DNA of 64,000 nt from Chlorobiota bacterium (GTDB taxonomy: Bacteria; Bacteroidota; Bacteroidia; Bacteroidales; VadinHA17): positions 121,455 to 185,454 of the forward strand of contig JAADHC010000072.1 of assembly GCA_013152085.1 (NCBI GenBank). The letters run 5' to 3'. The translations under genes were made by a program, and so were the position numbers. Shown one piece after another: positions 50,584 to 62,943 of the stretch; the stretch's first letter is position 1, and every line of letters starts with the position of its first letter. Below the pieces are notes generated by a model, which saw only the letters and a program-made list of their open reading frames with translations, was not told the DNA's origin and ran no database searches.

Positions 50584-53500
50584 TTATTTATATTCATCCC
50601 AGGCCTTTACCTGGATGTCATTCCTTTTGATCTGGCAAAAGGCCAGTATAAAAGCACTTGCCAGACGGGCATTTGTGATTAGCGGGATATTAAAATCCAC
50701 TGCATTTCGACGGATCATATAATCGTTATCCAATTCGTTTTTTGTAAGGTTCTTGGGGATATTAACGACCAGGTCAACAGTCCCGTTTTTAACCAGATCC
50801 AGGGTATTGGGGCGTTTTTTTTCATCAGGCCAGTAGGCAAGGGTGGTCGGAATATTATGATGGTCATAGAATTTCTTTGTTCCGCGCGTAGCATAAAGCC
50901 TGTATCCTTTATCAAGCAGGGCCCGGGCACTATTGATCAGTTCAACTTTAGAACGGACAGGCCCGGTGGACAGGAGAATGGCTTTTTCCGGAATGTGATA
51001 ACCTACCGATAACATGGATTTCAGGATGCCTTCGTAAAAATCGTCACCGATACAACCTACCTCCCCCGTTGAAGACATATCAACACCCAGAATCGGATCG
51101 GTCTGCTGGAGCCTGGAAAAAGAAAACTGCGGAGCTTTAACCCCAACATAATCGAGATCAAAGATCGATTTATTTAATGGTTCCACATTTTCGCCCAGCA
51201 GGATGCGTGTAGCCAGATGAATCAGGTTGACCTTAAGAACCTTCGATACAAAAGGCATACTCCGGGAGGCCCTCAGATTGCATTCAATGACCTTAACATT
51301 ATTGTCCTTGGCAAGAAACTGGATATTAAAAGGCCCCGAGATATTGAGTTCGGCAGCTATTTGCCGGGCAATACGTTTGATGCGGCGAATGGTTTCAAAA
51401 TAAATTTTCTGAGGGGGAAAAACCATAGTGGCATCACCGGAATGAACACCGGCAAATTCCACATGTTCTGAAATGGCATAAGCAACCATTTCCCCTTTCC
51501 CGGCCACGGCATCGATCTCAATTTCTTTGGCTTCCTGTATAAATTCAGATACAACTACCGGATATTGTTTGGAAACTTCAGCTGCCAGTTTGAGAAAATG
51601 ACCAAGTTCTTCCCGGTTCGATACCACATTCATGGCAGCGCCTGAAAGCACATACGAAGGCCTGATCAATACGGGAAATCCTATGTCGTCAACGAACTCA
51701 TGAATGTCTTCAATGTTTGTCAGTTCCCGCCAGCGGGGCTGATCAATTCCCAGCCGGTCAAGCATGGAAGAAAATTTGTGCCGGTTTTCAGCATGATCAA
51801 TTGAATCAGGGGATGTTCCCATGATATCGGCGCCGTTTTCCCTGAGCCTGACAGCAAGATTGTTTGGAATTTGACCGCCCATCGAAACAATGACCCCTTC
51901 CGGATTTTCAAGCTCATAAATATCCAATACCCTTTCCAGGGACAATTCGTCAAAATAGAGACGGTCCGATATGTCATAATCAGTGCTTACCGTCTCAGGA
52001 TTATAATTGATCATTATCGTTTGGAAGCCTTTGTTTTTTACGGTTTGAAGCGCATTGACACTACACCAGTCAAATTCGACGCTGCTTCCGATACGGTATG
52101 CTCCGGACCCAAGAATAATTACGGAATTGCGTTTTTTGTTAAAAGAGATATCATGTTCTGTAGCGCTGTAGGTCAGATAAAGATAATTGGTTTGTGCCGG
52201 ATATTCAGCAGCCAGCGTGTCAATTTGCTTAACAAAGGGGACAATTCCTTTCTTTTTGCGGTGATTCCTGATGCGGATCAGATCATCAGCAATACGGTTA
52301 ACAGGAGATTTAAGTACAAAACGGGCAATCTGAAAATCAGAAAAACCAAGGATCTTTGCTTCAAGCAGTGTCTGATCAGATAGCCCGGAGAGGCTGCCAA
52401 AAGAACTGAGAGTGTTTTTCAAAGCTACGATGTTCCGGAGTTTATACAAAAACCACTTGTCTATTCTTGTCAGGTTATGGATTTCATCTACCGGGAATCC
52501 TTTTTCAAGAGCATCAGCGATAACAAAAATACGCATGTCGGTAGGTTCTGCCAGTTCTTTTTCAACCGGTTCGAAGGTGAGTCCCCTGTTGCCGACAAAA
52601 CCATGCATGCCCTGACCGATCATTCTCAATCCTTTCTGAATGGCTTCTTCAAAAGTTCGTCCGATGGACATAACTTCACCCACACTTTTCATACTGCTGC
52701 CGATCAAATGGGAGACGCCTTCAAATTTATTCAGGTCCCAGCGCGGAATTTTACAGACAATGTAATCCAGTGCCGGTTCAAAAAACGCCGAAGTAGTTTT
52801 CGTAACGGCATTTTTCAGCTCGGGAAGGCCATACCCGAGGGCAAGTTTGGCAGCTATAAAAGCCAATGGATAGCCGGTGGCTTTTGAAGCCAGTGCACTG
52901 GAGCGGGATAGCCGTGCATTTACTTCAATTACCCGGTAATCCTCCGATTCAGGATCAAGAGCATACTGAATATTACATTCTCCGACAATGCCGATGTGGC
53001 GGATCACACGGATAGAAAGCTCGCGAAGTTTGTGGTATTCACTGTTTGTAAGTGTCTGTGAAGGTGCAACAACAATACTTTCACCGGTATGTATACCCAG
53101 GGGATCAAAATTTTCCATATTACATACCGTAATACAGTTATCAAATGCATCCCTGACCACTTCATATTCCACCTCCTTCCAACCTTTGAGTGACTCTTCC
53201 ACAAGGATCTGGTCAGTATAGGAAAAGGCTTTTGATGCCTGAATTTCAAGTTCTTCCTGTTCTGAACAAAAAGCACTACCCTGTCCCCCAAGCGTATAAG
53301 CAGAACGTATAATAACAGGGTATCCCAATGTTGCGGCAGCTTTCAGGGCATCACTAACATTGGTGACGGCCACACTCCGGGGGGTTTTTATTTCGATCTC
53401 ATTAAGCTTTTCTATAAACAATTCCCGGTCTTCGGTATCCATAATGGCCTGTACAGGAGTTCCCAATACACGGACATGATATTTTTCGAGAATACCATCT

Positions 53501-53805
53501 CGATGGATTTCAATACCGCAGTTTAATGCCGTCTGACCGCCGAATGACAACAAAATTCCATCCGGTTTCTCCCGCGCAATAACCTGCTCAACAAACCATG
53601 GCATAATCGGTACAAAATAGATTCTGTCCGCAATCTCTTCCGATGTTTGTACCGTTGCAATGTTCGGGTTAATCAGTATGGTGCGGATCCCTTCTTCACG
53701 CAGCGCTTTTAGAGCCTGAGAACCGGAATAATCAAATTCTCCGGCTTCACCGATTTTCAATGCTCCCGAACCTAACAGAACCACTTTTTTAATCGATTTA
53801 TCCAT
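50584..53805 (-). CDS. carB: Carbamoyl-phosphate synthase large subunit
   Basis: About 1073 residues. It makes carbamoyl phosphate from bicarbonate, two ATP and ammonia delivered by CarA, feeding arginine and pyrimidine synthesis. Two homologous halves are clear: the first begins VVLLGSGALKIGEAGEFDYS and the second VIILGSGAYRIGSSVEFDWC, each with an ATP-grasp core. The C-terminal MGS-like allosteric domain (VRSKVELINSARALLDKGY) is complete. ATG at 53805 matches the usual family N-terminus; the frame extends to 53844. It is transcribed away from argR across a shared palindromic operator, and is followed by the GNAT gene. Confidence 0.96.
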   Translation of the reverse strand: MDKSIKKVVLLGSGALKIGEAGEFDYSGSQALKALREEGIRTILINPNIATVQTSEEIADRIYFVPIMPWFVEQVIAREKPDGILLSFGGQTALNCGIEIHRDGILEKYHVRVLGTPVQAIMDTEDRELFIEKLNEIEIKTPRSVAVTNVSDALKAAATLGYPVIIRSAYTLGGQGSAFCSEQEELEIQASKAFSYTDQILVEESLKGWKEVEYEVVRDAFDNCITVCNMENFDPLGIHTGESIVVAPSQTLTNSEYHKLRELSIRVIRHIGIVGECNIQYALDPESEDYRVIEVNARLSRSSALASKATGYPLAFIAAKLALGYGLPELKNAVTKTTSAFFEPALDYIVCKIPRWDLNKFEGVSHLIGSSMKSVGEVMSIGRTFEEAIQKGLRMIGQGMHGFVGNRGLTFEPVEKELAEPTDMRIFVIADALEKGFPVDEIHNLTRIDKWFLYKLRNIVALKNTLSSFGSLSGLSDQTLLEAKILGFSDFQIARFVLKSPVNRIADDLIRIRNHRKKKGIVPFVKQIDTLAAEYPAQTNYLYLTYSATEHDISFNKKRNSVIILGSGAYRIGSSVEFDWCSVNALQTVKNKGFQTIMINYNPETVSTDYDISDRLYFDELSLERVLDIYELENPEGVIVSMGGQIPNNLAVRLRENGADIMGTSPDSIDHAENRHKFSSMLDRLGIDQPRWRELTNIEDIHEFVDDIGFPVLIRPSYVLSGAAMNVVSNREELGHFLKLAAEVSKQYPVVVSEFIQEAKEIEIDAVAGKGEMVAYAISEHVEFAGVHSGDATMVFPPQKIYFETIRRIKRIARQIAAELNISGPFNIQFLAKDNNVKVIECNLRASRSMPFVSKVLKVNLIHLATRILLGENVEPLNKSIFDLDYVGVKAPQFSFSRLQQTDPILGVDMSSTGEVGCIGDDFYEGILKSMLSVGYHIPEKAILLSTGPVRSKVELINSARALLDKGYRLYATRGTKKFYDHHNIPTTLAYWPDEKKRPNTLDLVKNGTVDLVVNIPKNLTKNELDNDYMIRRNAVDFNIPLITNARLASAFILAFCQIKRNDIQVKAWDEYK

Positions 53806-53875
53806 AGATATTTTGTATGGCTTAATGATATAAAATTTGCTCAAAGATAATCACACCTGTAAAAAAAGACAGTGA

Positions 53876-53908
53876 TTTGTTTTTTTTAATCAATAATGTA
53901 TATATTTG
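53876..53908 (+). promoter_or_regulatory. Promoter of the argR operon
   Basis: TTTG at 53876-53879 and TATATTTG at 53901-53908, with a 21-base spacer. The -7 box lies wholly inside the left arm of the palindrome at 53897-53931, so a repressor bound there would block the promoter. Confidence 0.55.
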
Positions 53909-53931
53909 CAACCATAATGCAAATATATACA
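53897..53931. promoter_or_regulatory. Candidate ArgR operator shared by argR and carB
   Basis: A perfect inverted repeat: TGTATATATTTGCA (53897-53910), spacer ACCATAA, then TGCAAATATATACA (53918-53931). AT-rich arms with TGxAT and TGCA elements resemble known ARG boxes. It overlaps the -7 box of argR, starts 4 bases before the argR ATG on that side, and its mirror half gives a TATATTTG box facing carB. Binding by the adjacent ArgR is inferred. Confidence 0.7.
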
Positions 53932-53935
53932 AATT

Positions 53936-54424
53936 ATGAAAAACAAATCACTTCGGCTAACCAGAATCAGGGAAATGATACACGGGCAGGTGATTACCAG
54001 CCAGGAGCAGTTGTTGGGATTGTTATATAGAGAGGGTTATGACATCACCCAGGCAACGCTTTCCCGTGATTTGAAGTATTTGGGTGCCGGCCGCATTCCT
54101 GACGGAAGGGGGTCTTACCGGTATGTTTTATCGGCAACATCAAGGTCTGCTCCCGAAGAGACAACCGGTCCATTCAGCGCAGGTAGCGGTTTCCTGTCGA
54201 TGGAATTTGCCAGGCAGTTGTTATTGATCCATACACTGCCCGGTTATGCCAGCACCCTGGCCATTGCCATAGACCAGGCAGGCAGGCCACAAATTGCAGG
54301 TACCATTGCAGGTGATGATACTATTCTGTTGATTCCAAGGGATGGAATTACCGACCAGACCCTGAAAAAAGTGCTTATGGAAATTTTCCCGGAGTCAGCA
54401 GAAAAAATCAGCAGGAACCAATAA
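53936..54424 (+). CDS. argR: Arginine repressor
   Basis: A 162-residue hexameric regulator that binds ARG boxes when arginine is present. The N-terminal winged helix (about residues 5-72) contains GYDITQATLSRDLKYLG. The C-terminal oligomerization and arginine-binding domain contains IHTLPGYASTLAIAID and IAGTIAGDDTILLIPRD, where the Asp pair contacts arginine in known structures. It heads the arginine/proline operon, and its own promoter lies in the candidate operator, which implies autoregulation. A second ATP-grasp gene, carB, diverges from it. Confidence 0.95.
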   Translation: MKNKSLRLTRIREMIHGQVITSQEQLLGLLYREGYDITQATLSRDLKYLGAGRIPDGRGSYRYVLSATSRSAPEETTGPFSAGSGFLSMEFARQLLLIHTLPGYASTLAIAIDQAGRPQIAGTIAGDDTILLIPRDGITDQTLKKVLMEIFPESAEKISRNQ

Positions 54425-54454
54425 TGTAACTATATGCAATAAATTGTGAGAAAG

Positions 54455-55705
54455 ATGAAAAACGGAAAAATTATTTTAGCTTACAGTGGCGGGCTTGACA
54501 CATCGATCATACTGAAATGGCTGATCGATCGCGGGAATGAAGTTATTGCCTATGTGGCAAATGTCGGACAGGAAGATGATTTTGAGGCGTGCAGGGAAAA
54601 GGCATTGAATATCGGTGCCAGCGACGTTGTTATTGATGATGTACGGGAACCGTTGGTAAGGGAGTTTATCTTTCCGGCTATACAGGCCAATGCTATCTAT
54701 GAGAGCAGATATCTCCTGGGGACAGCTCTTGCCCGTCCGTTAATTGCCAAACGAATGATTGAAACGGCGAAGAAATTTAATGCCGGAGTCGTCTCTCATG
54801 GCGCTACGGGTAAGGGGAATGACCAGGTACGCTTTGAACTTTCATTTTATGCCTTAAATCCGGAGATCAAAATATATGCACCCTGGAAAGACAATATTTT
54901 TCTGCAGGAATTCAAGGGTCGTTCTGATCTGATCAGGTATGCTGAGAATTCGGGAATTCCCGTTAAAGCTACGATTGATAAACCTTATAGTGAGGATGAC
55001 AACCTTATGCATATCAGTCATGAAGCCGGTATTCTTGAGGATCCTGCGCTCAAACCTGATATTTCTGTTTATTCGAAAATTACGCATCCTTTTAAAGCCC
55101 CGGATAAACCCGATCCCATCGAAATTTCTTTTAAAGATGGTATCCCCATAGAATTGTATCACCCGGAAAGCGGACGGACAGAAACAGAACCGCTGAAGTT
55201 GTTTCTGATGCTCAATGAACTTGGTTGTAAAAACGGTATCGGAATTCTGGATATGGTTGAAAACAGGTATGTCGGTATAAAATCAAGAGGGATTTATGAA
55301 ACACCCGGAGGAGAGATTCTTTATCATGCCCACCGGGATATTGAGGGAATCGCCATGGACCGTGAAGTAATGCGACTCAGGAATATGCTGACACCTAAGT
55401 TTGCAGAACTTGTTTATTACGGTTTCTGGTTCAGTCCTGAAATGGATTTTCTGATGGCGGCTATCCGGAAAAGTCAGGAATTGATTGACGGGAAAGTTTA
55501 TCTGACGCTGTATAAGGGCAATGTCCTGATTGACGGACGCGAATCCCCCAGCTCACTTTATGATCAGGATTTGTCAAGTATGGATATCGAAGGTGGTTTT
55601 GATCAGACTGACAGCAAAGGATTTATTAAAATCAATGCGGTGAGGCTGATGGCTCACCATGCGATTGTAAGCAAACATAAAAAGAATCATATATACAGTC
55701 TGTAA
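54455..55705 (+). CDS. argG: Argininosuccinate synthase
   Basis: A 416-residue enzyme that condenses citrulline and aspartate with ATP to argininosuccinate. The PP-loop [16 protein letters not shown] lies at the N-terminus, followed by [17 protein letters not shown] and the citrulline/aspartate site near [18 protein letters not shown] at 54455 is preferred over the in-frame GTG at 54446. It lies 30 bases after argR and 13 before proC, so the operon is compact. Confidence 0.96.
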
Positions 55706-55718
55706 TAAAATAGATAAG

Positions 55719-56525
55719 ATGATACAGCAAAAGATTGCCATTCTTGGCGGAGGAAACATTGGTTCGGCAATAGCTGCAGGACTGGTAAGATCAGGAGATG
55801 TAAAACCGGACCACATTACCGTAACGAGAAGGAAATTGCATCTGCTTTACTCACTGAAAGAGAAGGGAGTTAAGGTTACGGATAATAATAAACAGGCTTT
55901 AGACCAGTCGGAAATGGTTATCCTCGCTGTCAGGCCGAGACAAATGGAGGGTTTGCTACAGGAAATATCATCTTACTTAAACGCGGAAAAACATATATTG
56001 GTTTCAGTTGTTACGGCATTTCCGATTGCCCGGATTGTAAAAATATCCGGAGATCATATCCCGGTTTTCAGGGCAATGCCCAATACAGCAGCTTCGGTAT
56101 GTGAATCTGTTACCGGATTGTCGGCCGGAAATCATGATCCTGAAAAAATAAAGATGGTACAGGCAGTTTTTGAACGGGTGGGTCGTACATATTTAATTGA
56201 AGAGCAGTTACTGGAATCGGCAACCATTATGGATGCCTGTGCTATTGCTTATTTCCTTCGGGTGATACGGGCTTTCATGCAGGGGGGGATTCAAATTGGT
56301 TTTCATGCTTCCGATGCACAGATGATCGCTGCACAGGTGGCTAAAGGTGCTGCTTCTTTATTACTGGAAACAGGCATACATCCTGAAGAAGAGATTGATA
56401 AAGTAACTACCCCGAGAGGTGTGACAATTGCCGGGCTTAATGAAATGGAACATCATGGGATGAGTTCGGCCCTGATTAAAGGGATCACTGCTTCGTTTCA
56501 TGAAATAGAAAAGCTGCGTGAATGA
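55719..56525 (+). CDS. proC: Pyrroline-5-carboxylate reductase
   Basis: A 268-residue NAD(P)H-dependent enzyme for the last step of proline synthesis. Rossmann motif IAILGGGNIGSAIAAGLVRSG, later VVTAFPIARIVKISG and FRAMPNTAASVCESVTGL, and the C-terminal signature EIDKVTTPRGVTIAGLNEME. Its stop overlaps the argH start by 4 bases, so a proline gene is translationally coupled to an arginine gene. Confidence 0.95.
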   Translation: MIQQKIAILGGGNIGSAIAAGLVRSGDVKPDHITVTRRKLHLLYSLKEKGVKVTDNNKQALDQSEMVILAVRPRQMEGLLQEISSYLNAEKHILVSVVTAFPIARIVKISGDHIPVFRAMPNTAASVCESVTGLSAGNHDPEKIKMVQAVFERVGRTYLIEEQLLESATIMDACAIAYFLRVIRAFMQGGIQIGFHASDAQMIAAQVAKGAASLLLETGIHPEEEIDKVTTPRGVTIAGLNEMEHHGMSSALIKGITASFHEIEKLRE

Positions 56526-57859
56526 AAAAATTGTGGGATAAAAACAGCAGTATCAACGAATTTGTTGAAGCATTTACTGCAGGGAATGATCCGGTTCTCG
56601 ATCTGGAACTGGCTCCATGGGATATCATCGGCTCAATAGCACATGTTGCCATGCTGGCTGAAACAAACCTGATAAGCGTGGAGGAGAAAGATAAACTCAT
56701 CAAAGAGTTAAAAAGCCTGTACCGGTTAGCTGCCGACGGGAAATTGATTATTGATCCCGCTGTAGAGGATATTCATTCGCAGGTGGAAAATGAGTTGACC
56801 AAAATGCTTGGGGATACCGGGAAAAAGATCCATACGGCACGTTCAAGAAATGACCAGATCATTCTGGATATACGACTTTATGCCAGAGAAAAGTTAACCA
56901 TCATCCGGGAAGAAGTACTGCAGTTGTTTAATTTGCTGATACAACTCAGTGAGAAATATCATAACATATTAATGCCGGGATATACCCATTTTCAGGTGGC
57001 TATGCCTTCGTCGTTCGGCCTGTGGTTTTCCTCTTTTGCCGAAAGCCTGGCAGATGATATGATTTTACTGAACAGTGCTTACCGGGTGGTAAATCAGAAC
57101 CCGTTGGGTACGGCGGCTGGTTACGGTTCTTCCCTGCCGGTAAACAGGGAAATGACCACTCATCTCCTGGGGTTTGACGATATGGTATATAATTCAATTT
57201 ATGCCCAGGTTGGTCGTGGAAAAACCGAAAAAATGATTTCCGTTGCCATGGCATCCGTTGCTTCGACACTTTCGTTGCTGGCGATGGATGCAGTTCTTTT
57301 TATGGGGCAGAATTTTGGTTTTCTTTCCCTGCCGGATGCTTTTACTACCGGTTCGAGCATCATGCCCCACAAAAAAAACCCGGATGCTTTTGAGTTGATC
57401 CGTGCCTACGGAAACAAAATACAGGCTCTTCCCAATGAGATACAGATGATCGGCACAAACCTGCCCTCCGGGTATCACAGGGATAAACAGATTCTGAAAG
57501 AATCCCTGTTCCCTGCCTTTAATTCGCTGCAAAAGTGTCTCCGGATGACTATGCTTCTTCTAGGAAATATAAAAGTGAACCCAAACATTTTAGATGATGA
57601 ACGTTACCGTTATATTTTCAGTGTTGAAGAGGTTAACGAACTGGTAAAAAAAGGGATTCCGTTCAGGGAGGCATATCGCAGGGTTGCCGGCGATATTGAA
57701 AAGGGAAAATATGTCCCGGAACGGAAAGCAACCTATACGCACGAAGGCAGTATCGGGAATCCCGGGAATCCGGGTATCCGGAGAAAAATGGAGCAAATTG
57801 CTGCTGAAATCAATCCGCAAATTGCAACTGAAGCAATGAACAGGCTGCTGACAGCCTGA
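56522..57859 (+). CDS. argH: Argininosuccinate lyase
   Basis: A 445-residue fumarase-superfamily enzyme that cleaves argininosuccinate to arginine and fumarate. The superfamily signature GSSIMPHKKNPDAFELIR is intact, including the catalytic serine loop; DIHSQVENEL and the HTARSRNDQI region bind substrate, and GYTHFQVAMPSSFG carries the catalytic His. It is coupled to proC upstream and is followed 35 bases later by the degenerate kinase gene. Confidence 0.97.
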   Translation: MKKLWDKNSSINEFVEAFTAGNDPVLDLELAPWDIIGSIAHVAMLAETNLISVEEKDKLIKELKSLYRLAADGKLIIDPAVEDIHSQVENELTKMLGDTGKKIHTARSRNDQIILDIRLYAREKLTIIREEVLQLFNLLIQLSEKYHNILMPGYTHFQVAMPSSFGLWFSSFAESLADDMILLNSAYRVVNQNPLGTAAGYGSSLPVNREMTTHLLGFDDMVYNSIYAQVGRGKTEKMISVAMASVASTLSLLAMDAVLFMGQNFGFLSLPDAFTTGSSIMPHKKNPDAFELIRAYGNKIQALPNEIQMIGTNLPSGYHRDKQILKESLFPAFNSLQKCLRMTMLLLGNIKVNPNILDDERYRYIFSVEEVNELVKKGIPFREAYRRVAGDIEKGKYVPERKATYTHEGSIGNPGNPGIRRKMEQIAAEINPQIATEAMNRLLTA

Positions 57860-57894: not shown

Positions 57895-58578
57895 ATGGAA
57901 AACATATGTTTAAAAATTGTTGTGAAAGTTGAAATCAGCACTTTGCTTGATCAACATGGCGAACTGGATGCCGCCGGGATGGAACGTATGTCTATGGTGC
58001 TGGCCAATCTGAGTAACAGCGGTTCGCAAATATTTATCGTTTCTTCGGGATCGATCTTTTTGGGCTCAAAAAAACTTGGAGTTCCGGATCAACCGGATTC
58101 GCTGGTGGACAAACAGGCTTTGTCGGCTATCGGCCAGGCTGAGTTGATGAAACGGTACCGCAGATATTTTGAGAGTTATAACCTGATGGTTGCCCAGGTT
58201 TTACTTACCGGAGATGTTTTCAATGATCCCGAGCGAAGAAATAATGCACGCAATACGCTGACACACCTGGCCAGGTTGCATGTCATCCCGGTGATCAATG
58301 AAAATGATGCCGTTTCGACCGAAGATATCGAACTGAATGATAATTATTATCTGGTCCGTGCCGTTGCAGAACTGATCAGAGCAAATGCCATACTGATAAA
58401 AGAAATGAAACCGGGTTTATATTCTTTATTATCCCGTCAGGCAAAAGAACCTGTCGGAATGTTACACGAAGACGATTTGATTGGTCATTTGACAACGATG
58501 GCCCCTGAGATGAATGCCGGGGAATATATCTCAAAGCATTTTCCTGATCATATCCAATCTTTAAACGGAGAGGGTTAA
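57895..58578 (+). CDS. Degenerate glutamate-5-kinase paralogue (amino-acid-kinase fold)
   Basis: A 227-residue protein clearly related to the next gene, proB: shared blocks are KQALSAIGQAELMKRY, VAQVLLTGD, NARNTLTHLARLHVIPVINE and NDAVST. The catalytic sites are eroded: VKVGSST is VKVEIST, SSGAVAVG is SSGSIFLG, the aspartate after the substrate Asn (GNNDILAA in ProB) is Tyr (NDNYYLVR), and the LSDIDGFF and FGTGGM segments that hold ATP are missing. It is not a frameshift: the reading frame is open, begins at ATG 57895 and ends 4 bases before proB. A pseudokinase or regulatory subunit is likely; function unproven. Confidence 0.82.
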   Translation: MENICLKIVVKVEISTLLDQHGELDAAGMERMSMVLANLSNSGSQIFIVSSGSIFLGSKKLGVPDQPDSLVDKQALSAIGQAELMKRYRRYFESYNLMVAQVLLTGDVFNDPERRNNARNTLTHLARLHVIPVINENDAVSTEDIELNDNYYLVRAVAELIRANAILIKEMKPGLYSLLSRQAKEPVGMLHEDDLIGHLTTMAPEMNAGEYISKHFPDHIQSLNGEG

Positions 58579-58582
58579 TATA

Positions 58583-59383
58583 ATGGATCAAAGAGATTTT
58601 TCGGGGAAACAATTGATTATTGTTAAAGTGGGGAGTTCAACCCTTTCTTTTTCCAATGGGAGATTAAACCTGCAGCGGTTGGAACGACTCGTTAAGGTAA
58701 CGGTCTCCCTGAAAAAACAGGGGAAGCAGATTGTGCTGGTATCTTCCGGAGCTGTGGCGGTAGGAGGAGGATTGCTTGGAATGAAACATAAACCGGATAA
58801 ACTGGAAGAAAAACAGGCTCTGGCTGCCGTCGGACAAGCAGAACTCATGAAGATTTACCAGAAATTCTTTGAGCCGGGAGACCAGATTATTGCCCAGGTT
58901 TTGTTAACCAAAGATGGTTTGCAGGAGGCGGTGAAACGGAAAAATGCTGCGAACACTTTAACAAAGTTATTGAACATGGATATTATTCCGGTTATTAACG
59001 AGAATGATACCGTTTCCACTTACGGTATAGAGTTCGGGAACAATGATATACTGGCGGCCCGTGTAGCTGAACTTTTGCATGCCGGTTTGCTGATTATCCT
59101 TTCGGACATTGACGGATTTTTTACTGCCGATCCGAAAAGCAACAGGGATGCTGCTCTGATTCATACCGTGCACTGCATTACAGATGATATTCGAAGGAAT
59201 GCTTCCGGAAGTGGTAATTCATTCGGGACCGGAGGGATGGCCGAAAAACTTGAGGCGGCAAATATCTGTCTTAAAAACAATATTGATGTGGTCATTGCCA
59301 ATGGTGAAAGACCGGATGTTGTCCTTGATATTCTGAAAGGGAAACCTGTGGGAACATTATTTTCCGTGAAGACAACGGATTAA
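58583..59383 (+). CDS. proB: Glutamate 5-kinase
   Basis: A 266-residue amino-acid kinase, the first committed step to proline (and glutamate semialdehyde). Motifs complete: VKVGSSTL, VSSGAVAVGGGLLG, VINENDTVS, FGNNDILAA, LSDIDGFFTADP and FGTGGMAEKLEAA. There is no C-terminal PUA domain, so it is the short catalytic form. It is preceded at 4 bases by the degenerate paralogue and followed at 22 bases by proA. In other bacteria ProB is feedback-inhibited by proline. Confidence 0.96.
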   Translation: MDQRDFSGKQLIIVKVGSSTLSFSNGRLNLQRLERLVKVTVSLKKQGKQIVLVSSGAVAVGGGLLGMKHKPDKLEEKQALAAVGQAELMKIYQKFFEPGDQIIAQVLLTKDGLQEAVKRKNAANTLTKLLNMDIIPVINENDTVSTYGIEFGNNDILAARVAELLHAGLLIILSDIDGFFTADPKSNRDAALIHTVHCITDDIRRNASGSGNSFGTGGMAEKLEAANICLKNNIDVVIANGERPDVVLDILKGKPVGTLFSVKTTD

Positions 59384-59405: not shown

Positions 59406-60656
59406 ATGTTAGAGGAATTAATTGAAAAAGGGAAAAAAGCGCGGGGAGCAGCCGCTTTTTTACGTACCGTATCCAGCGCAGAAAAGAATAAGGTATTGAC
59501 GGGGGCTGCCGGCCGTCTGGAGATTAATCTGGACCGCCTGCTGGAGGCTAATCATCTGGATATCGTTGCTGCTGAAAAAAATGACATTAAAGGAGCATTT
59601 TTAGACAGGCTGAAATTGAATACCGGTCGTGTAAAAAGTATGGCCGACGGATTACGGGAACTGGCTGCTTTGCCCGATCCTGTCGGAGAGGTGGTCTCTA
59701 TGGTAAAGCGTCCCAATGGGTTGATGATCGGAAAACAAAGGGTCCCGATAGGGGTGATCGGTATTATTTATGAATCCCGGCCTAATGTTACTGCCGATGC
59801 TTTCGGACTTTGTCTGAAAACCGGAAATGCCACTGTTTTACGAGGGGGTAAAGAAGCGATCCACAGCAATCTGGCAATTCTGGATGTGTTGCAGGAAGCT
59901 CTTGTTGACAGGGGCTTCCCCGGAGATGCGGTTCAGGTGGTTGAGAACACATCCCGCGAAAGTGCCCGGGACATGATGCGCATGAATGGGTATCTTGATC
60001 TGCTTATCCCCCGTGGCGGGCAGGGTCTGATCAAAACAGTGGTCGAAAACAGTTCGGTCCCGGTTATCGAAACCGGTGTGGGAAATTGTCACGTGTTTGT
60101 TGATAACCAGGCAGATCAGGAGAAAGCCATTGCCATTGCCGTAAATGCGAAAACCCACCGGCCGGGGGTTTGTAATGCTGCCGAAACCTTACTTATACAT
60201 ACCGGTATTGCCGCACCATTTATTCCGGCCGTTTGTAAAGCCATGGCAGAAAAAGGTGTAGAGATCAGAGGAGATGAAACGGTATGCCGGTACTGGCCTG
60301 AAGCTGTTCCTGCCACAAAGGATGATTGGGCAAAAGAATACCTGGATCTGATCCTTGCCGTCAGGGTGGTTGGTTCCCTGGATGAGGCTGTTCAGCATAT
60401 TTCCCGATATGGAACAGGACATTCCGAAGCCATTGTTACGGAAAATTATTCAAAAGCTCAGGCGTTTCTGGCAAAGGTTGATGCTGCCGCCGTTTATGTG
60501 AACGCTTCCACCCGTTTTACAGATGGTTATGAGTTTGGTTTTGGTGCTGAAATCGGAATCAGCACCCAAAAATTACATGCCCGTGGCCCGCTGGGATTGA
60601 AGGAACTTACCAGTACCAAATACATTATCTACGGCAACGGACAGATCAGGGAATAA
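59406..60656 (+). CDS. proA: Gamma-glutamyl phosphate reductase
   Basis: A 416-residue aldehyde-dehydrogenase-fold enzyme that reduces glutamyl phosphate to glutamate 5-semialdehyde. Visible: GVIGIIYESRPNVTADAFGL, NATVLRGGKEAIHSN, the catalytic Cys in KTHRPGVCNAAETLL and the ENYSKAQAFLAKVDAAAVYV segment. It probably channels product from ProB. It is the last gene of the argR operon; only 15 bases separate its end from the convergent carA. Confidence 0.97.
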   Translation: MLEELIEKGKKARGAAAFLRTVSSAEKNKVLTGAAGRLEINLDRLLEANHLDIVAAEKNDIKGAFLDRLKLNTGRVKSMADGLRELAALPDPVGEVVSMVKRPNGLMIGKQRVPIGVIGIIYESRPNVTADAFGLCLKTGNATVLRGGKEAIHSNLAILDVLQEALVDRGFPGDAVQVVENTSRESARDMMRMNGYLDLLIPRGGQGLIKTVVENSSVPVIETGVGNCHVFVDNQADQEKAIAIAVNAKTHRPGVCNAAETLLIHTGIAAPFIPAVCKAMAEKGVEIRGDETVCRYWPEAVPATKDDWAKEYLDLILAVRVVGSLDEAVQHISRYGTGHSEAIVTENYSKAQAFLAKVDAAAVYVNASTRFTDGYEFGFGAEIGISTQKLHARGPLGLKELTSTKYIIYGNGQIRE

Positions 60657-60671
60657 ATGAAACCCGGAATA

Positions 60672-61772
60672 TTATTCCCCTTTATGGATTTTTATTTTCC
60701 CGATAAATTCGTCGAAAAGAAAGGCTGTATCCGTCGGACCTCCTGAAGCTTCTGGATGAAACTGGGTTGAAAAAAACGGACGTGAAGTATGGATCATCCC
60801 TTCGTTTGTCCCGTCATTAATATTGATAAACAACGGCTTCCACTCGGCTGATAATGTTTTGTTGTCTACCGCATAACCATGATTCTGTGAAGTGATGTAT
60901 GCCTTGTTTGTGTCTGCCTGTAAAACGGGTTGGTTATGACTGCGGTGTCCGTATTTCAATTTGTAGGTATCTGCGCCGGAAGCCAGGGCCATAAGCTGAT
61001 TACCGAGACAGATACCAAAAACAGGACGATCGTCATCAGACATCTGGTTCTTTAGATTTTCAATGGTAAGGTTGCAAAGTTTCGGATCTCCCGGCCCGTT
61101 TGAAATAAACAACCCGTCATAATCTGTATCTTTCAGCGAATAATCCCATGGAACACGAATAACCGTGGTATCTCTCTGCAACAGGTAACGGATGATATTA
61201 TACTTGACGCCACAATCAACCAGGAGGATCCTGTACTTGCCATTACCGTAAGTTTGTACTTCCCGTGTGCTTACCTGGGCTACCAGATTTTCTTTTGACG
61301 GATCATAAAAGGGGATATCATCCTGCCCGAAAATGATTTTGCCAAGCATGGTCCCCTTTTCACGAAGCTTTTTTGTCAGTGCACGGGTATCAACACCGTA
61401 TATGCCGGGAATTTTATTTTCTTTCAACCATTGACCAAGGCTGTCCTTTGCATTCCAGTGGCTGTAATGAAATGAGTAATCGGAAACTACCAGCGCGGTG
61501 ATATGTATCTTGTTGGATTCCTGAAACCGCAACAACTCATTTTCCATCTCCTCCTTGGGGGCCCCGTAATTTCCAACCAGCGGATAGGTCAGGACAAGAA
61601 TCTGTCCTTTATATGAGGGATCGGTCAGGCTTTCGGGATATCCGGTCATGGCCGTGTTAAAAACCACCTCGCCGGAAACCGGAGATTCATAGCCAAAAGA
61701 TTTCCCTGTGACCCGGGTACCGTCCTCGAGGATCAGGGTTACTTCAGCAACAGATTGATCAGCTATTTTCAT
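60672..61772 (-). CDS. carA: Carbamoyl-phosphate synthase small subunit
   Basis: A 366-residue glutaminase partner of CarB. The N-terminal CarA domain (residues 1 to about 150) is followed by a class I glutamine amidotransferase with the catalytic Cys in FGICLGNQLMAL, the NHGYAVD segment and the His-x-Glu of QFHPEASGG. It is not adjacent to carB (about 7 kb away, across the operon) but follows the PatB-type gene with a 4-base gap, so it is probably transcribed from that gene's promoter. Confidence 0.96.
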   Translation of the reverse strand: MKIADQSVAEVTLILEDGTRVTGKSFGYESPVSGEVVFNTAMTGYPESLTDPSYKGQILVLTYPLVGNYGAPKEEMENELLRFQESNKIHITALVVSDYSFHYSHWNAKDSLGQWLKENKIPGIYGVDTRALTKKLREKGTMLGKIIFGQDDIPFYDPSKENLVAQVSTREVQTYGNGKYRILLVDCGVKYNIIRYLLQRDTTVIRVPWDYSLKDTDYDGLFISNGPGDPKLCNLTIENLKNQMSDDDRPVFGICLGNQLMALASGADTYKLKYGHRSHNQPVLQADTNKAYITSQNHGYAVDNKTLSAEWKPLFININDGTNEGMIHTSRPFFSTQFHPEASGGPTDTAFLFDEFIGKIKIHKGE

Positions 61773-61776
61773 GGTG

Positions 61777-62943
61777 TTATTGTATTGCTTTTTTCAGGTT
61801 TTCCATAGCCTGTTCAACGATACTTTTGGGACAGGCAACATTCATACGCTGGAAACCAACTCCCCCCTGACCGAATATTGTTCCATCATTCAGACCGAGT
61901 TTAGCTTTACGGGTTAACATCGAATTCAGTTCTCCGGTTGTCATGTTCAGTTCTCTGAAATCCAACCAGAGGAGGTAGGTGGCTTCAACAGGAGAAATTC
62001 TTACCCGGGGAATCTCATTTTCCAGGAATTCCGTGACAAAACATATGTTTTCCTGCAAATACCTGAGTAATGCATCCAGCCAGGGTTCTCCTTCACCGTA
62101 TGCCGCAGTGGAAGCGATCATCCCAAACAGGTTGCCCATGTTCAGATGGAGACGCTCTATAAAAGCCTTGAATCGTTTCTTTTTATGTTCGTTTTTAATA
62201 ATAACCGACGAAGTACTCAGCCCGGCCAGGTTGAATGTTTTACTCGGGGCAATGCAGGTAACAGTGGCTTCAGCCAGTTCGGGGGACATGGCGGCCAGTG
62301 GTATATGTTTATATCCCGGCATGGTCAGATCGGCATGGATCTCATCCGAAACGATGAGGACATTGTTTTCAAGGCATATTTCACCGAGTTTCAGAAGTTC
62401 TTCCCGGGTCCATGATCTCCCGACCGGATTATGAGGATGACTGAGTAACAGGATTTTTGCTTCTTTTGCCTTGCGGGAAAGATCGTCAAAATCAATCGTG
62501 TATTTATTATTCTTTTCAACCAAACGGTTATTCAGCAACCGGCGGTTATTGTTTCGAATAGCATGAAAAAACGGATGGTAAACAGGTGACTGCAGGATAA
62601 CGCCGTCACCGGGCTGGCTGAATTCCTGTATCAGGATATTGAGTGCCGGCACAACGCCCGGACTATAATGGATCCAGTCGGTTTCAATTTCCCAGCCATG
62701 ACGTTTTTTCAGCCAGGCCACAATGGTTTCAAAATAAACCGGCGGACGCATAGTGTACCCATAAACAGGATGTTCACTTCTTTTTCTGATGGCTTCGCTT
62801 ACCGGTGGGGGTACGGAGAAATCCATGTCTGCTACCCACATGGGTAAAATATTCTCCGCTCCGAAAAGTTCTTTACGGCGGTCATACTTAATAGTGTGTG
62901 TTCCGGAACGATCAATAATGCGGTCAAAGTCAAAAGTATGCAT
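61777..62943 (-). CDS. PatB/MalY-type C-S lyase (PLP-dependent aminotransferase fold)
   Basis: A 388-residue class I/II aminotransferase-fold enzyme. The PLP lysine is in APSKTFNLAGLSTSS, preceded by VSDEIHADL; the N-terminus reads FDRIIDRSGTHTIKYDRR, as in cystathionine beta-lyase PatB and MalY. It probably cleaves the C-S bond of cystathionine or cysteine. Four bases from carA: an odd pairing of sulfur and carbamoyl metabolism. Aminotransferase activity on another substrate remains possible. Confidence 0.9.
   Translation of the reverse strand: MHTFDFDRIIDRSGTHTIKYDRRKELFGAENILPMWVADMDFSVPPPVSEAIRKRSEHPVYGYTMRPPVYFETIVAWLKKRHGWEIETDWIHYSPGVVPALNILIQEFSQPGDGVILQSPVYHPFFHAIRNNNRRLLNNRLVEKNNKYTIDFDDLSRKAKEAKILLLSHPHNPVGRSWTREELLKLGEICLENNVLIVSDEIHADLTMPGYKHIPLAAMSPELAEATVTCIAPSKTFNLAGLSTSSVIIKNEHKKKRFKAFIERLHLNMGNLFGMIASTAAYGEGEPWLDALLRYLQENICFVTEFLENEIPRVRISPVEATYLLWLDFRELNMTTGELNSMLTRKAKLGLNDGTIFGQGGVGFQRMNVACPKSIVEQAMENLKKAIQ

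Follow-up and report, generated by a model that had tools for sequence, protein, structure and literature searches.

Directly ahead of an intact proB gene, the 64,000-nucleotide stretch of DNA analysed here (the window) carries an open reading frame for a second, shorter protein of the glutamate 5-kinase type, raising the question of what function is left to a kinase paralogue that has been deprived of its catalytic residues and is kept beside a complete enzyme. We use the label psi for this 227-residue paralogue.

Sequence and structural features of psi

The psi gene (57895..58578, + strand) is followed after a gap of 4 bp by proB (58583..59383, + strand), the coordinates of the two adjacent frames bearing out the 227 codons and the 4-base spacing given in the original prediction. 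ProB, which opens the proline pathway, is an intact glutamate 5-kinase of 266 residues without a PUA domain, retaining all catalytic residues and scoring 296.7 bits with the TIGR01027 (proB) profile, above the curated cut-off of 186. With the same profile, psi reached 172.6 bits, under the cut-off, and was aligned only to profile positions 2–175 of 363; its identity with the neighbouring ProB is 46% across psi residues 8–178, far beyond chance, and psi gave no match to TIGR00761 (ArgB, N-acetylglutamate kinase). The structure model of psi (mean pLDDT, 89.6; 23 sequences) consists of the amino-acid-binding half and a small tail replacing the ATP-binding domain, and the solved structures nearest to it are those of glutamate 5-kinases. 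Of the two halves of the glutamate-kinase fold, the one that binds the amino acid is retained in psi and the one that binds ATP is lost.

All of the losses originally claimed for psi are real in the alignment: VKVGSST in the phosphate loop of ProB has become VKVEIST, Tyr stands in place of the Asp following the substrate Asn, and neither LSDIDGFF nor FGTGGM has a counterpart. In a survey of 28 psi sequences (E. coli glutamate 5-kinase numbering), Gly12 of the P-loop is replaced by Glu in 26 and Asp150 by Tyr in all, GTGGM is deleted throughout, and Lys217 is absent save for one isolated aligned Lys. As judged from these residues, psi lacks those for phosphoryl transfer in every member, and its identification as an active glutamate 5-kinase was rejected on these losses and on the missed TIGR01027 cut-off. 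That psi still works as some other type of kinase is very improbable: Lys10 is kept in 11 of the 28, including the psi of the window, whereas Arg, Asn, Asp, or Ala occupies this position in the other 17, and the substitutions at Gly12 and Asp150 and the deletion of GTGGM and the ATP-binding half speak against any such activity. Asn134, Asp137, and Asn149 of the glutamate/proline pocket are invariant, as are Glu135, Asn136, Gly51, Gly79, and Gln80 (28/28 each). Asp143 is also invariant (28/28), where most ProBs have Glu; Asp148 is kept in 23 sequences and Ser50 in 21, the latter being replaced by Ala in families f5 and f11. The tail carries a near-invariant Phe–Pro motif.

Conservation, selection, and descent

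Psi was found in 29 genomes of 17 genera and 7 families, all belonging to one order (12 in the window's own family and 17 elsewhere in the order), which rules out an oddity of a single genome. A sample of 395 genomes from the class revealed no psi beyond the order, and a scan of named genomes gave only ordinary ProBs among the matches listed. The frame contains no internal stop in any of the 29 genomes, the copy in one of them (G010) being cut by a contig end, and dN/dS of the psi core between close pairs is 0.013–0.103 (mostly 0.01–0.10), similar to that of ProB, with faster evolution in the tail (about 50 residues). This faster tail and the disappearance of half of the kinase would fit a pseudogene in slow decay, a reading that we reject as having a negligible chance against open frames in all 17 genera and the low dN/dS of the core. 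The checks suggested with the original prediction, namely a search for psi in relatives with mapping of its neighbour and an estimate of dN/dS over the clade, have thus revealed a gene that is widespread in the order, mostly adjoins proB, and stays far under a dN/dS of 1. Its description as a degenerate paralogue holds for the lost residues and segments and fails in the sense of decay; the claim of a pseudokinase that has been kept is upheld by the loss of the phosphoryl-transfer residues and segment together with purifying selection and the constant presence of ProB.

ProB is present in 29/29 psi genomes. Psi directly precedes proB in 22 of these genomes; a contig end interrupts the pair in two more, and the two genes are unlinked in the remaining five (family f5). 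The gap is 3–27 bp where measured, and 133–138 bp in family f11. Psi is always accompanied by a short ProB, in lineages almost all of which are without ArgB and ArgC. In the phylogenetic tree, psi forms one monophyletic clade (support, 100/100), the branching of which largely mirrors that of ProB. Such congruence was discarded as proof of a contact between the two proteins, being unspecific: the tree correlation is 0.83 for psi–ProB and 0.84 for psi–ArgH in the same genomes. In genus g10 of the window's own family (G870 and G872), the psi, ProB, and ProA sequences each cluster with those of family f118, as though these genes had travelled as a unit. This apparent joint transfer and the lack of any psi genome without ProB argue against a role of psi that is independent of ProB, be it sensing amino acids on its own or serving a different partner (ArgR or ProA, for example); such a role, with which the folded pocket and the separate location of psi in f5 would agree, is improbable.

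Operon and pathway setting

The operon reads argR (53936..54424; TIGR01529, 122.9 bits; cut-off, 130.45), argG (54446..55705; start codon tentative; TIGR00032, 466.7 bits), proC (55719..56525; TIGR00112, 214.9 bits), argH (56522..57859; TIGR00838, 333.1 bits), psi, proB, and proA (59406..60656; TIGR00407, 516.9 bits), encoding the arginine repressor, argininosuccinate synthase, pyrroline-5-carboxylate reductase, argininosuccinate lyase, psi, ProB, and glutamate-5-semialdehyde dehydrogenase, respectively, all on the + strand. It is flanked by a divergent carB (50584..53844, − strand) and a convergent carA (60672..61772, − strand), both named from sequence and kept in position in relatives. A PatB-like aminotransferase gene (61777–62943, − strand) lies between carA and ksgA, an order shared with genome G008. 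Just before argR, a consensus scan with background found two ARG-box-like palindromes (53895–53912 and 53916–53933) with scores of 13 and 12 of 16 and a distance of 21 bp, equal to that separating ARG boxes in E. coli. Because 3 of 90 background windows also scored 13, the evidence from this stretch alone is weak, and the case for ArgR rests on the relatives, several of which repeat the tandem spacing and two of which score 16/16; we regard control of the operon by ArgR as probable.

In the clade and neighbouring groups (40 genomes), ArgC and ArgB exceed the cut-offs in only two (G734 and G554) and ornithine aminotransferase in 39; ornithine transcarbamylase (OTC) is present in 37/41 and ArgH in 41/41 genomes. 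In the window's own genome, the best match to the ArgB model TIGR00761 has 35.9 bits (cut-off, 151.3) and falls in an 830-residue frame. The sole evident source of ornithine is therefore the route from glutamate through ProB, ProA, glutamate semialdehyde, and ornithine aminotransferase, which would make ProB common to the two pathways; from the gene content, ProB probably supplies both proline and arginine. An operon serving both pathways, as had been proposed for this locus, is supported by this set of present and absent genes and by the tandem ARG-box-like sites.

At L297:6821-8814 (contig G000:C34), the only OTC gene of the window's genome is directly preceded by a carbamate kinase gene, arcC, an arrangement typical of citrulline breakdown and hence a caveat to the reading as arginine synthesis. 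Weak matches to the ArgB model beside OTC in many relatives suggest an arcC–OTC pair there too. In S. aureus, the OTC ArcB1 serves arginine synthesis from proline (PMC3510247). One contig of the psi-bearing genome G734 (C219; L237, L239, and L261) contains argC, an ornithine-type aminotransferase gene, and argB, representing a recent gain, a retained ancestral cluster, or contamination.

The relation between ProB type and arginine genes was surveyed in 140 ProB-bearing genomes of the order, 107 with a PUA-type and 33 with a short ProB. argB is present in 95 of the former and in one of the latter, or, counted by family, in 29/33 versus 1/10. Psi occurs in 7 of the 10 short-ProB families and is absent from 14/33 short-ProB genomes; it is therefore dispensable for a dual-use ProB, and its being a requirement of such an enzyme is ruled out. 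In the same operon slot, psi-lacking relatives (L229:9259-13885, L230:1469-7880, L231, L232, and L235) have argR, a GNAT-like gene, a divergent argG (product about 27% identical to ArgG of the window), proC, a gene for an M20 ArgE-like deacylase, argH, proB, and proA, with argB and argC absent. Such an arrangement could encode late steps that lead from ornithine to citrulline via N-acylated intermediates.

ProB positions 143 and 148

ProB of the window has Gly143 and Asn148, a combination found in 7 of 155 surveyed ProBs, all seven psi-bearing and from the window's lineage; Gln143 occurs in two other ProBs, which are psi-bearing too. These changes amount to about two evolutionary events. In E. 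coli glutamate 5-kinase, E143A or D107N abolishes proline control, and D148/N149 have been reported for proline binding (PMC5418603). The contrast of Gly143/Asn148 in ProB with Asp at both positions in psi suggests, at the level of residues, a division of labour. We tentatively raise the specific scheme, rather unlikely as a whole, that ProB of this lineage gave up its own end-product site and that psi, in a mixed oligomer, would sense both proline and an arginine-branch product, so that in the absence of the ArgB route the two pathways would jointly control one kinase. In genome G808, the ProB adjacent to psi (L222:6989-7792) has Tyr at the catalytic Asp150, and a second ProB without psi (L223:2905-3756) is encoded on another contig, possibly as a result of a mixed assembly.

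Proposed role of psi

Based on its conservation, catalytic loss, kept pocket residues, linkage to proB, and the pathway gene content, we are somewhat inclined to regard psi as a dedicated non-catalytic subunit of ProB giving end-product control, both the contact and the ligand being ones that we infer. As in the original prediction of a mixed oligomer that carries feedback, psi would join the ProB tetramer, bind an end product (most likely proline, possibly ornithine or arginine) in its retained pocket, and relay the bound state to the catalytic subunits. Catalysis and feedback would then be split over two polypeptides, as a means of controlling a kinase on which proline and arginine synthesis would both draw. 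Counted against this reading are the psi–ProB tree correlation, no higher than that with ArgH, the 14 short-ProB genomes without psi, the unlinked genes in f5, the replacement of Ser50 by Ala in f5 and f11, and the small number of changes at ProB positions 143 and 148. Alternatively, psi might be an assembly or activating subunit that switches on a poorly active or unstable ProB, or links ProB to ProA, without sensing an end product. The constant pairing with ProB, the Phe–Pro motif as a potential docking element, and the activation of trypanosomatid AdoMetDC and deoxyhypusine synthase by dead paralogues (PMC5201418, PMC3663545) lend this alternative a limited chance; counting against it, the pocket residues of psi are more strictly conserved than a mere scaffold would require, ProB has its full catalytic set, and relatives use a short ProB without psi.

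Comparison with known systems

The best structural and sequence matches of psi are the glutamate 5-kinases ProB (E. coli, 2J5T, 2W21, and 8ZPJ; Burkholderia thailandensis, 4Q1T), which it resembles in the fold of its amino-acid-binding half and in having the NEND motif and Asn149, and from which it differs in lacking the ATP-binding half, GTGGM, and the PUA domain and in having Tyr for Asp150 and Glu for Gly12. Psi is a warning for annotation, in which it may be counted as a second glutamate 5-kinase. The Leishmania donovani enzyme, without a PUA domain and short like ProB here, is a proline-regulated tetramer with proline cooperativity residing within the kinase domain; unlike for ProB with psi, a paralogous partner is not described in the part of that report available (PMC6099280). 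Animal and plant P5CS supports both proline and ornithine synthesis with a single glutamate kinase activity, as we infer here; unlike psi and ProB, it is a fused GK–GPR protein that forms filaments, and it has no separate dead subunit (PMC8963878). Within the amino acid kinase superfamily, the putative paired aspartate kinase subunits of Pyrococcus (TIGR02078) offer a lead only, as paired paralogues of the aspartate kinase branch: the match of ProB to this profile is weak (35.6 bits; cut-off, 242.4), and psi has none.

The open-licence papers searched held nothing relevant on a glutamate-kinase pseudokinase or an amino-acid-kinase pseudoenzyme, in agreement with the original statement that no system of this type was known. 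Dead paralogues as regulatory subunits are already known, and none was found described for glutamate 5-kinase. Like the AdoMetDC prozyme and the dead deoxyhypusine synthase paralogue of trypanosomatids (PMC5201418, PMC3663545), in which dead paralogues regulating live biosynthetic enzymes are best described, psi is catalytically dead and conserved, has a live paralogue in its own genome, and is proposed to regulate that enzyme; the trypanosomatid proteins have unrelated folds, eukaryotic hosts, and a proven complex, whereas that of psi and ProB is putative. If the regulatory role is true, psi would be a bacterial case among the amino acid kinases, linked to a remodelled arginine pathway, that helps to explain arginine synthesis without ArgB and ArgC in these bacteria and shows how feedback is rebuilt when an enzyme takes on two pathways.
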